Positions 8,411 to 14,266 of a DNA stretch of 64,000 nucleotides are shown piece after piece (positions within the stretch are counted from its first letter, which is position 1; every line of letters starts with the position of its first letter). A program made the translations under genes and the position numbers. This DNA comes from Dyadobacter luteus. Its GTDB lineage: Bacteria > Bacteroidota > Bacteroidia > Cytophagales > Spirosomataceae. The notes under the pieces were generated by a model. It worked only from the letters and a program-made list of their open reading frames with translations, had not been told where the DNA came from and made no database searches. The stretch is taken from positions 124,001-188,000 of the forward strand of contig NZ_QNUL01000011.1 of assembly GCF_003383615.1 (NCBI RefSeq), given 5' to 3'.

Positions 8411-8876
8411 CGGCAGTCGGCTATCGGCTGTCAAACCTTTGCAAATAACACACTATTTCGATAATGAGAGATTTTAGAAAATATGCTGTTTGGGAGCAAA
8501 GTCATAAGCTTGTGCTTGAACTTTACAGATTGACTAAAAACTTCCCTCAGGAAGAAAAATTTGGGTTAACTTCTCAAATAAGAAGGGCAGGCATTTCGAT
8601 ATCTGCCAATATTTCAGAAGGATGTGGAAAACTAAGCGAAAGAGACTTTGCCCGGTTTCTAGGAATCTCTTTTGGATCTTGTCAGGAAGTTGAATACCTC
8701 ACACTTTTGGCAAAAGATTTGGATTACTTGGACGAACAAAGCTATGAGCCTCTTTCTATTGAAATAGTGTCTATTAAAAAGCAATTATATCACCTAATTA
8801 AAAAATTAAACGCCGGAAGTTAACGATGTCCCACTCGGTTACAGCCCGACCGCCGACAGCCGAAAGCCGAAAGCCC
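8411..8876. repeat. imperfect inverted repeats flanking the four-helix-bundle gene
   Basis: The segment CGGCAGTCGGCTATCGGCTG begins at 8411, just after leuC. An inverted, similar copy (GACAGCCGAAAGCCGAAAGC) ends near 8874, just before leuD. The reverse complement of the left copy aligns with the right copy at about 18 of 23 positions. The only gene between them is the S23-type gene at 8464-8823. The arrangement looks like a small insertion unit with terminal inverted repeats, but no target duplication was found. The right end runs into the leuD start region. Confidence 0.55.
8464..8823 (+). CDS. four helix bundle protein (S23 / 23S rRNA intervening-sequence family)
   Basis: A 119-residue member of the four-helix-bundle family that includes proteins encoded in 23S rRNA intervening sequences and the Avd accessory proteins of diversity-generating retroelements. 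Diagnostic segments are FRKYAVWEQSHKLVLELYRL, FPQEEKFGLTSQIRRAGISI and ANISEGCGK. No reverse transcriptase, rRNA or variable repeat lies nearby, so it is a solitary copy. It has no metabolic tie to leuC and leuD, which it separates, and is bounded by inverted repeats. The cellular role of solitary members is unknown to me. Confidence 0.88.
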   Translation: MRDFRKYAVWEQSHKLVLELYRLTKNFPQEEKFGLTSQIRRAGISISANISEGCGKLSERDFARFLGISFGSCQEVEYLTLLAKDLDYLDEQSYEPLSIEIVSIKKQLYHLIKKLNAGS

Positions 8877-11162: not shown

Positions 11163-11441
11163 ATGGAAAAGCAACAACTTTATCAAAGCCTTAAAAGTCA
11201 TCTCTTGAAAAATAATGTTACAAGAGCTGCCATTTTTGGATCTTTTGCCCGTAATGAAGAGACAGACAAAAGCGATATAGATGTACTTATTGAAGTAAAT
11301 AACATGACCATGTTCGATATTCTCCGACTTGAAGATGAGCTTCAGAAAATCTGCCAGAGAAAAATAGATCTCGTAGAATACAAAGCAGTGAAGTCATCCA
11401 TTCAAAAATATGTCTTTTCTGATCTTGTTGAATTGATATGA
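11163..11441 (+). CDS. mntA: MntA-type nucleotidyltransferase antitoxin
   Basis: A 92-residue minimal nucleotidyltransferase with the signature GSFARNEETDKSDID (G26, S27, D38, D40). In characterised HEPN/MNT systems this protein adds AMP groups to the HepT toxin and neutralises it. The gene ends in an ATGA overlap with the HEPN gene (start 11438, stop 11439-11441), so the pair is translationally coupled. It is inserted between the synthase paralogue and leuB. Confidence 0.88.
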   Translation: MEKQQLYQSLKSHLLKNNVTRAAIFGSFARNEETDKSDIDVLIEVNNMTMFDILRLEDELQKICQRKIDLVEYKAVKSSIQKYVFSDLVELI

Positions 11442-11764
11442 AACGAGACGATCTTGTATATGTTCAGGACGTCATTGATTCCATTGAAATCATAATTGGC
11501 TATACGAAGGAACAGTCAGAATCTGACTTTGAAAGCAATATCATGTTGCAGGATGCTGTTTATCGCAGACTGGAAATAATCGGCGAAGCAGCCACAAAAA
11601 TTTCAGAGACCTTCAAGGATCAGCATCCGGAAATTGAATGGAAACTCATGAAACTGATGCGAAATAAACTGATACATGAATACTTTGGTATTTCGTCAAC
11701 TACAGTTTACGCCACTATTACCGAGGATATTCCGACACTACTTTTTAAATTAAAATCAATATAA
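11438..11764 (+). CDS. hepT: HepT-type HEPN toxin
   Basis: A 108-residue HEPN-domain protein. The catalytic RX4HXY motif is present as R75-NKLI-H80-E81-Y82, and the helical core (AVYRRLEIIGEAATKIS) is typical. HEPN toxins of this class are RNases; AMPylation of the motif tyrosine by MntA is the known inactivation route. All motif residues are intact, so the toxin should be functional. The leuB ATG follows only 7 nt after its stop, which suggests that leuB is transcribed through the toxin-antitoxin pair. Confidence 0.88.
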   Translation: MKRDDLVYVQDVIDSIEIIIGYTKEQSESDFESNIMLQDAVYRRLEIIGEAATKISETFKDQHPEIEWKLMKLMRNKLIHEYFGISSTTVYATITEDIPTLLFKLKSI

Positions 11765-11771
11765 TTCATTA

Positions 11772-12842
11772 ATGAAAAAGCATATTCTAATTGTTCCAGG
11801 TGATGGTATAGGCCAGGAAGTTACAGAAGTTGGAAAAAAAGTTCTGGAAAAAATTGCTGCAAAATTCGGCCATGAGTTCACTTACGACGAAGCTCTTATA
11901 GGTCACGTTGCCATCGAAGCAACAGGAAATCCACTTCCTGACGAAACCCTGGAAAAGATGCGTGCATCTGACGCGGTTCTTTTCGGAGCCGTTGGACACC
12001 CTAAATATGATAACGACCCAAGCGCAAAAGTTCGTCCTGAACAAGGACTACTGAAAATGCGTAAAGAGCTGGGATTGTATGCAAACCTGCGTCCTATCAA
12101 ACTTTTTGACGAACTGCTTGGCGCATCTTCTATCAAGCCTGAAATTCTGAGAGGTTCAGACATTCTCTTCTTCCGTGAATTGACTGGTGATATTTACTTC
12201 GGAGAAAAAGGACGTAAAAACGAAGGCGATACTGCTTATGATATCGCTGAATACAGCCGCTACGAAGTGGAACGCATCGCACGTAAAGCATTCGATGCTG
12301 CACGTACGCGTCGCAAAAAACTTTGCTCTGTTGACAAAGCGAATGTGTTGGAAACAAGCCGCTTGTGGAGAGAAGTGGTTCAGAAATTAGCTCCTGAGTA
12401 TCCTGACGTTGAAGTTGAACACCAATTCGTTGATTCAGCTGCCATGATGTTGATCAAAGATCCTAAGCGTTTTGATGTTGTCGTAACTGCGAACCTATTT
12501 GGTGACATCCTTACTGACGAAGCGAGCCAGATTGCAGGCTCTATGGGTATGTTGGCCTCTGCTTCTGTAGGCGACAGTACAGGTGTATACGAGCCTATCC
12601 ATGGCTCTGCTCACGATATCACTGGTAAGGGAATCGCTAACCCATTGGCGTCTGTGCTTTCAGCTGCCCTTTTGCTTGATATTTCTTTCGGATTGAAAGC
12701 TGAATCTGACGCAATTATCGCTGCAGTTGACAAGCTTTTGAAAGATGGATTCAGAACTAAAGATATCGCCGACGAGACCACTCCTGCGGATAAGATTCTG
12801 AACACGCAAGCAGCTGGTGAAGAACTATTAAAGAGAATTTGA
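11772..12842 (+). CDS. leuB: 3-isopropylmalate dehydrogenase
   Basis: NAD-dependent oxidative decarboxylase that makes 2-oxoisocaproate in leucine synthesis. The 356-residue protein carries the beta-decarboxylating dehydrogenase features: the GDGIG N-terminal motif, the substrate loop LRKELGLYANLRP-like segment (KMRKELGLYANLRPIK), the Mg-binding NLFGDILTDEASQIAGSMGM and the nucleotide-binding EPIHGSAHDITGKGIANP. The length is normal. It follows HepT by 7 nt and is followed by the leuA leader region. Confidence 0.97.
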   Translation: MKKHILIVPGDGIGQEVTEVGKKVLEKIAAKFGHEFTYDEALIGHVAIEATGNPLPDETLEKMRASDAVLFGAVGHPKYDNDPSAKVRPEQGLLKMRKELGLYANLRPIKLFDELLGASSIKPEILRGSDILFFRELTGDIYFGEKGRKNEGDTAYDIAEYSRYEVERIARKAFDAARTRRKKLCSVDKANVLETSRLWREVVQKLAPEYPDVEVEHQFVDSAAMMLIKDPKRFDVVVTANLFGDILTDEASQIAGSMGMLASASVGDSTGVYEPIHGSAHDITGKGIANPLASVLSAALLLDISFGLKAESDAIIAAVDKLLKDGFRTKDIADETTPADKILNTQAAGEELLKRI

Positions 12843-12869: not shown

Positions 12870-12900
12870 TTTGTTTAAGACAAAACTTGTACTTTCTTTG
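12870..12900 (+). promoter_or_regulatory. promoter candidate of the leuA leader
   Basis: TTTG (12870-12873) and TTTCTTTG (12893-12900) are separated by 19 nt. This fits the Bacteroidota -33/-7 pattern (TTTG, 17-23 nt, TAnnTTTG) with one mismatch in the -7 box. Transcription would begin near 12906, about 40 nt before the leader peptide ATG. Confidence 0.45.
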
Positions 12901-12946
12901 CAGAAGAAAATCGCAGTCAGCGAAATTTCGCCAACCAGAATAGGTC

Positions 12947-12994
12947 ATGACACACGATCAAAATAAAAATTGGCTTCTGCTTAGTATTCCTTAA
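12947..12994 (+). CDS. leucine-rich leader peptide of leuA
   Basis: A 15-codon frame, MTHDQNKNWLLLSIP, starts at ATG 12947 and ends at TAA 12992-12994. It holds three consecutive leucine codons (CTT CTG CTT, 12974-12982) and an isoleucine codon. The stop codon overlaps the first arm of a small hairpin and lies 30 nt upstream of an intrinsic terminator, itself upstream of leuA. This is the classical arrangement of leucine-operon attenuation. No ribosome-binding sequence beyond a weak AATAGG is seen, which is normal in this phylum. The call rests on composition and position, not on homology. Confidence 0.72.
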   Translation: MTHDQNKNWLLLSIP

Positions 12995-13035
12995 AAAAGA
13001 GGAAGGTTTTGTTTTGAGTCGCCCAAAACCCTTTC
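12987..13035 (+). promoter_or_regulatory. antiterminator/pause structures of the leuA attenuator
   Basis: Arm 1 TTCCTT (12987-12992) can pair with arm 2 GAGGAA (12999-13004). Arm 2 extended, GGAAGGTTTTG (13001-13011), can instead pair with arm 3 CAAAACCCTTTC (13024-13035), with one bulge. Arm 3 is the 5' side of the terminator. A ribosome stalled at the leucine codons would cover arm 1 and favour 2:3, allowing read-through. A ribosome at the stop codon would cover arm 2 and favour termination. Confidence 0.62.
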
Positions 13036-13055
13036 TCTCAACGGGAAAGGGTTTT
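13025..13055 (+). terminator. attenuator terminator upstream of leuA
   Basis: A perfect 11-bp stem, AAAACCCTTTC (13025-13035) with GAAAGGGTTTT (13045-13055), has a 9-nt loop. The U residues form the 3' end of the stem and are followed by ATATT, so the run is short. It lies 57 nt before the leuA ATG, within the leader, and not after a gene. Confidence 0.7.
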
Positions 13056-13111
13056 ATATTGGTCAAAAATTATTAAATTCGTAATTCAAATAATAAAAAA
13101 TACCCATTCAA

Positions 13112-14266
13112 ATGAGTAATCGAGTTCAGATCTTCGACACCACCTTAAGGGACGGCGAACAGGTTCCAGGCAGCCAATTAACAACGGAGGAAAAGATAAT
13201 TGTTGCCAAACAACTCGAAAAACTCGGCGTTGATGTGATCGAAGCTGGATTTCCGGTGTCAAGTCCTGGCGACTTCCGCTCTGTAGTGGAAATATCCAAA
13301 GTTGTTCGTGAACCTATCATCTGTGCGCTTTCAAGAGCTGTAATTGGTGATATTGATGCAGCTGCGGACGCACTCCAATATGCAAAACGTGGTCGGATAC
13401 ACACCGGTATTGGCTCATCTGACATCCACATTCAGCATAAATTTAACACCACAAGGGAAAAAATCATTGAAAGAGCAATTTCTGCCACCAAATATGCAAA
13501 AGGTAAGGTAGAAGATGTAGAATTCTATTGTGAAGATGCCGGTAGAGCAGACCTTGTATTCCTTGCGCAGCTTGTAGAAGCTGTAATCGGAGCTGGTGCT
13601 ACTGTTGTAAATATTCCTGACACTACCGGATACTGCCTTCCGGAAGAATATGGTAACAAGATTAAGTACATTTTCGAGAATGTAAAAAATATACACAAGG
13701 CAACAATCTCTATCCATTGCCATAACGACCTCGGCCTTGCCACCGCAAATTCAATTGCAGGTATCAGCCAGGGAGCGCGCCAGGTGGAGGTAACCATCAA
13801 TGGTATCGGCGAAAGAGCTGGAAATACTTCCCTTGAAGAAGTAGTGATGGCGCTGAATGTTCATAAGGAACTTGGTCTGGAAACTGGCGTAAACACACAG
13901 TTTATTTATCCAACAAGTCAGCTCGTTTCAAAAATGATGCGTATGCCTGTACAAGCCAATAAAGCGATTGTAGGCAGAAATGCGTTTGCACACAGCTCAG
14001 GCATTCACCAGGATGGACACCTGAAAAATACGCTGAATTACGAAATTATGAATCCACAGGATGTGGGCGTAGACAAGTCGGATATCGTGCTTACAGCGCG
14101 TAGCGGCCGTCATGCACTAAAACATCGTTTAGAGCTCTTGGGCTTCTCTTTCGACAAACCAACACTGGACGAATTGTATACCAGATTCCTGGAAGTAGCA
14201 GACGTTAAGAAGGAAGTGAATGATGCAGATCTTGTAGATTTGGCACGCACTGCGATTCCGGCATAA
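13112..14266 (+). CDS. leuA: 2-isopropylmalate synthase, short form without regulatory domain
   Basis: Condenses acetyl-CoA with 2-oxoisovalerate, the committed step of leucine synthesis. The 384-residue protein has the DRE-TIM barrel ([21 protein letters not shown]), metal ligands in [15 protein letters not shown] and the subdomain I/II segment ([19 protein letters not shown]). It stops where the LeuA dimer/regulatory domain would begin in 500-residue enzymes, so direct leucine feedback inhibition is not expected. Control may rest on the leader attenuator immediately upstream. No frameshift is visible after the stop, and a terminator follows about 100 nt later, so this looks like a natural short form. 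Confidence 0.92.

Follow-up and report, generated by a model that had tools for sequence, protein, structure and literature searches.

A very probable leucine attenuator between leuB and leuA of Dyadobacter luteus, with a promoter-proximal palindrome shared by related loci

The leuA gene of Dyadobacter luteus closes a locus for branched-chain amino acid (BCAA) synthesis with the order ilvD-ilvB-ilvN-ilvC ... ilvA ... leuC-leuD-cimA-leuB-leader-leuA, which raises the question of how this last gene is controlled behind a leader of its own, and whether that leader stands in for a feedback domain that its product lacks. The window, i.e., the whole stretch of 64,000 nucleotides that was analyzed, corresponds to G000:C3:124001-188000 of a 6.95-Mb genome whose nearest named relative is D. 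psychrotolerans (LeuA 98%). On the forward strand, leuA (13112-14266) encodes a 2-isopropylmalate synthase of 384 aa (NCBIfam NF002086, above cut-off), and the 5' neighbour of the leader is leuB (11772-12842, TIGR00169, above cut-off). Pfam assigned only the HMGL-like and HCS_D2 domains to LeuA, in agreement with the earlier remark that the feedback domain (LeuA_dimer) is missing, while LeuA_dimer was present on the CimA-like protein of the same locus. A nucleotidyltransferase/HepT-like pair (11163-11764) sits between cimA and leuB and looks inserted, as most relatives have a cimA-leuB gap of ~95 nt. Likewise, leuC and leuD are separated by a small extra ORF (8464-8823).

Direct reading of the sequence confirmed a Bacteroidota-type promoter, TTTG-N19-TTTCTTTG, on the forward strand upstream of the leader ORF (12870-12900; TTTG at 12870-12873 as the -33 element and TTTCTTTG at 12893-12900 as the -7 element), which has TTTC where the consensus TTTG-N19-TAnnTTTG has TAnn. 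A palindrome, GCGAAATTTCGC (12920-12931), starts exactly 19 nt downstream of the TTTG of the -7 element; the same spacing was found at ilvD and in 47 related leuA upstream regions, and a further TTTG recurs 46 nt before the palindrome in 44 of the related regions. Further downstream, on the same strand, follows the leader ORF MTHDQNKNWLLLSIP (15 codons plus stop, 12947-12994), which is conserved in relatives; its three consecutive leucine codons, CTT CTG CTT at 12974-12982, would be the regulatory ones, and its stop codon is at 12992, so that the frame and codons given in the preliminary description proved exact. The leader of the window differs from those of two related loci (L003 and L005) by 5 synonymous and 2 non-synonymous codons each, and these two differ from one another by 3 synonymous and no non-synonymous changes, from which we infer that the ORF is translated. 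One leucine codon was lost in the window leader (TTG to TGG). Compared with the BCAA genes of the window, leader leucine codons are more often CTC (36% vs. 9%) and CTA (15% vs. 5%), a preference that base pairing may explain in part.

Three hairpins were recovered by folding on the forward strand. The 1:2 hairpin was found where it had been described (12987-13004; 12987-12992 paired with 12999-13004, 6 bp, -5.4 kcal/mol), and in an arm-swap test it reached -7.1 against -6.5 for swapped arms, with 242 of 20000 permutations as good, a weaker outcome than in the tests of the other stems; it is also weak in some relatives, with only 2-3 bp in the Dyadobacter loci L022-L028. The pairing of the 2:3 antiterminator, previously placed at 13001-13035, does exist but extends further, to 12998-13038, where 13024-13038 is the partner of 12998-13006 and 13011-13016 (15 bp, interrupted by a 4-nt bulge; -14.1 kcal/mol, z -3.1). 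The position of the 3:4 intrinsic terminator (13025-13055) likewise stood, with 13 bp instead of the 11 bp first counted (13025-13037 with 13043-13055, -17.4 kcal/mol, z -4.9), and a U-rich tail takes the feature to 13059. In an alignment of 34 sequences, 84.5% of the cells were paired in the 2:3 helix and 92.1% in the 3:4 helix. The covariation of the 2:3 helix was 0.210 vs. 0.154 in shuffled alignments (0 of 500 as high; slid controls at most 0.132) and that of the 3:4 helix was 0.177 vs. 0.153 (2 of 500; slid controls 0.126), where these shuffle counts are not probabilities because the related sequences are not independent. The number of 2:3 pairs changed on both sides did not exceed that of the shuffles in this alignment. 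The 2:3 and 3:4 stems are mutually exclusive.

The best account of this evidence is that the leuA leader is very probably a leucine-specific, ribosome-mediated transcription attenuator, as had been proposed, and the Leu-rich leader, the two alternative stems and the ribosome geometry conserved in relatives all support it. The promoter between leuB and leuA would give rise to a leader RNA, and with ample Leu-tRNA the ribosome would reach the stop codon (12992) and cover the 5' part of segment 2; 2:3 could therefore not form, 3:4 would form instead, and RNA polymerase would terminate near 13055-13060. With scarce Leu-tRNA, the ribosome would stall at 12974-12982 and leave segment 2 free, 2:3 would form and leuA would be transcribed, and without translation the 1:2 hairpin would form and permit termination. 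The transcription start, the termination efficiency and the response to leucine are predicted parts of this scheme. What the sequence itself shows is the ORF with its conserved leucine content, the two exclusive and covarying stems and the ribosome geometry. For the geometry, 12 nt from the A-site codon were counted as occluded: the antiterminator had a median of ~-11.4 kcal/mol with the ribosome at the second-last leucine codon and -3.1 with the ribosome at the stop codon, and a ribosome at the stop codon weakened it in 50 of 50 leaders, which matches the classical model but is partly built into the test, as pairing can only become weaker the more RNA is covered. The terminator tail, TTTTATATTG, is U-rich but interrupted, which counts against an attenuator, as do the short 1:2 hairpin of L022-L028 and the loss of the leader start in D. 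arcticus; read-through from the upstream operon into leuA might do so too.

A comparison with relatives, proposed in the preliminary description, yielded a Leu-rich leader in 50 of the 54 closest leuA loci, besides the covariation of the 2:3 and 3:4 stems. At these 50 loci an ATG-initiated leader, 12-19 codons long, begins within 3-22 nt of the palindrome and ends ~105-131 nt before leuA. The exceptions are D. arcticus L013, L049 (palindrome only) and the two Fibrisoma loci L050 and L051, in which leuA abuts leuB; at L047 the terminator scan did not detect the hairpin. In D. arcticus L013 a deletion runs from the -7 region into the leucine codons and keeps the hairpins, a natural loss of the palindrome and the leader start. 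Leader peptides diverge in sequence and remain rich in leucine (26.6% of residues in 51 leaders). A detector that required an ATG ORF of 10-30 codons with ≥ 18% leucine and a terminator of ≥ 9 bp within 60 nt was positive for 18 of 20 representative leuA upstream regions, 0 of 500 dinucleotide shuffles and 1 of 115 other genes of the same contigs. Throughout the family, leaders were found directly upstream of leuA in many genera, including several without the palindrome (genus g21).

Other readings of the locus were weighed against the same observations. Lying between leuB and leuA and well formed as an intrinsic terminator, the hairpin could simply end the upstream leu operon, with an ordinary, constitutive leuA promoter and an accidental run of leucine codons; however, the terminator is preceded by both the promoter and the leader ORF, the Leu-rich ORF and the antiterminator are conserved, and the leader is retained without a neighbouring leuB in Runella, SCN 52-12 and Persicitalea (no leuB within the flank examined), which leaves this explanation very unlikely. 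Still less credible is an action in trans, in which the terminated leader would work as a small RNA, or its peptide as a small protein, instead of a cis switch: a discrete terminated RNA of ~150 nt is indeed expected, but beyond close relatives the peptide keeps its leucine content and not its sequence, and the element keeps its place directly upstream of leuA.

More weight, although it too seems improbable, can be given to a main control at initiation via the palindrome, with the attenuator as a minor device or relic. The palindrome is conserved at a fixed spacing from the promoter and is present without a leader at leuA of L049 and G007, whereas loci of genus g21 (L248, L260-L262) keep their leaders without it, and compensatory changes indicate that the stems are still under selection. 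The leucine attenuator remains the preferred reading for the leader.

Analogous leaders at ilvD and trpE of the same genome support it. An attenuator-like ilvD leader lies just outside the window (G000:C3:121907-122077; L085:11908-12077), where the palindrome GCGAAATTTCGC, 170 nt upstream of ilvD, is followed by the leader peptide MKSIILIPGLPVVTRFA and alternative hairpins; the ilvD leaders of relatives are likewise rich in Ile, Leu and Val. The trpE leader MNFTFNTIGWWRGRLNRMDR (G000:C37 near 11960-12150; L276:1281-1420) contains a pair of neighbouring Trp codons, is followed by a terminator hairpin and is likely a Trp attenuator. No obvious leaders were seen at hisG and thrA of this genome.

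The suggestion that attenuation may replace allosteric control at leuA did not hold up. In Bacteroidales, leuA genes for a full-length product (about 498-512 aa) also have Leu/Ile leaders with a similar terminator in front of them, and in a class-wide sample five genomes had a Leu/Ile leader and a GCCTTTCTCAC terminator before leuA, all with a full-length LeuA (~502-512 aa); the loss of the feedback domain therefore does not explain the attenuator. Conversely, a short LeuA without a directly upstream leader is common, and in the class-wide sample no short LeuA gene from outside the family had a leader directly upstream, a count that would miss leaders at operon heads elsewhere. On these two grounds, the replacement of the feedback domain by a leader was rejected as a rule. 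Prevotella-type loci follow the same leader plan. In their leaders (L065-L067, L070, L075, L078, L079) the stretch ATTATTATTCGACTGCG is nearly identical across species, beyond the needs of the peptide, and may have a further role in the RNA.

The palindrome itself probably serves as operator for a ScfR/RamB-like regulator, which the ilvD and leuA leaders would have in common. Its only two copies in the genome, GCGAAATTTCGC at these leaders, led us to reject a general repeat. An RNA hairpin is not favoured either, as other genera carry the palindrome in intergenic regions, at varied distances from unrelated and often divergent genes, with half-sites 18 nt away. In 121 family genomes the pattern AGCGAAWWTTCGC occurred 404 times vs. 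65 for a reversed control (6.2x; both strands counted), and in other genera the palindrome GCGAAWWTTCGC was located at ilvD, leuA, aceB/ScfR, pckA/ScfR, pckA, near fbp, POT transporters and gltB (loci in relatives: L117, L118, L119, L121, L123, L125, L127, L128, L133-L135, L281, L282, L303), in some cases preceded by a GCGAAA half-site at a distance of 18 nt. The best candidate for binding it is a predicted RamB-like (ScfR) regulator. The motif was present in 102 of 105 genomes with this regulator vs. 5 of 16 without it (Fisher 1.1e-9, confounded by phylogeny), and the regulator's own promoter carries the site in genera g2, g6, g19 and g36, while the Dyadobacter ScfR homologue (G000:C28:3039-4514; 51% identical) lacks the site at its own gene. 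Like ScfR, RamB and PrpR (PMC10370305, PMC6765138, PMC4448153), the candidate from Bacteroidota combines an HTH, an IrrE-like domain and the CX2CX4C motif, although it scores far below the cut-off of the RamB equivalog (53 vs. 700 bits). The PrpR/RamB recognition box, TTTGC(A/G)AA (PMC6765138), resembles GCGAAATTTCGCAA of many leuA loci; paired boxes with an 18-bp spacer are known for these regulators (PMC10370305, PMC6765138, PMC4448153), and the Bacteroidota half-sites are 18 nt apart from start to start. Tentatively, and with slightly less than even confidence, we propose that BCAA synthesis in Spirosomaceae-type bacteria is under two stacked controls. One layer would be the two separate attenuators, of the Ile/Leu/Val type at ilvD and of the Leu type at leuA. 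The other would be a ScfR/RamB-like regulator of global reach that presumably senses acyl-CoA; it would bind GCGAAWWTTCGC immediately past the ilvD and leuA promoters and, in other genera, in front of genes for the glyoxylate cycle, gluconeogenesis, peptide uptake and glutamate synthase.

The mechanism is a textbook one. In enterobacteria, leuL encodes a 28-aa peptide with a run of leucine codons, is followed by an alternative antiterminator and terminator, and heads leuABCD. The Dyadobacter leader shares the plan of a Leu-codon leader with alternative hairpins before a leucine synthesis gene, but its peptide is shorter (15 vs. 28 aa) and it would control leuA alone, after leuB. A study by Lopatovskaya et al. 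from 2010, reportedly a comparative one on attenuation, may already list Bacteroidota cases. The leuA leader had no match to the Rfam model Leu_leader (RF00512) at the gathering score or at E ≤ 10, and is therefore not detectably homologous to it; T-box leaders (RF00230) gave no match under the same thresholds, nor did the Bacteroid-trp motif (RF01692), a cis-regulatory RNA of Bacteroidetes linked to trp by its name (PMC2864571), and at neither threshold did any other Rfam family fit. The preliminary description knew of no described leucine attenuator in this group, yet for Flavobacterium psychrophilum, of the same phylum, a paper whose main text names no leucine leader and gives no structure had already inferred this kind of mechanism, attenuation by leader peptides, upstream of amino-acid operons (PMC9723704). 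Our literature search found no paper on a Dyadobacter attenuator, and as far as the literature searched shows, the putative leuA leader itself is new.

The locus offers a concrete, testable leucine attenuator together with its natural variants, in a phylum in which the control of amino-acid synthesis is poorly known and for which Rfam holds no leucine model that fits the Dyadobacter leuA leader. The conserved palindrome suggests a regulon that has so far gone unrecognised and may link BCAA synthesis to central carbon metabolism.
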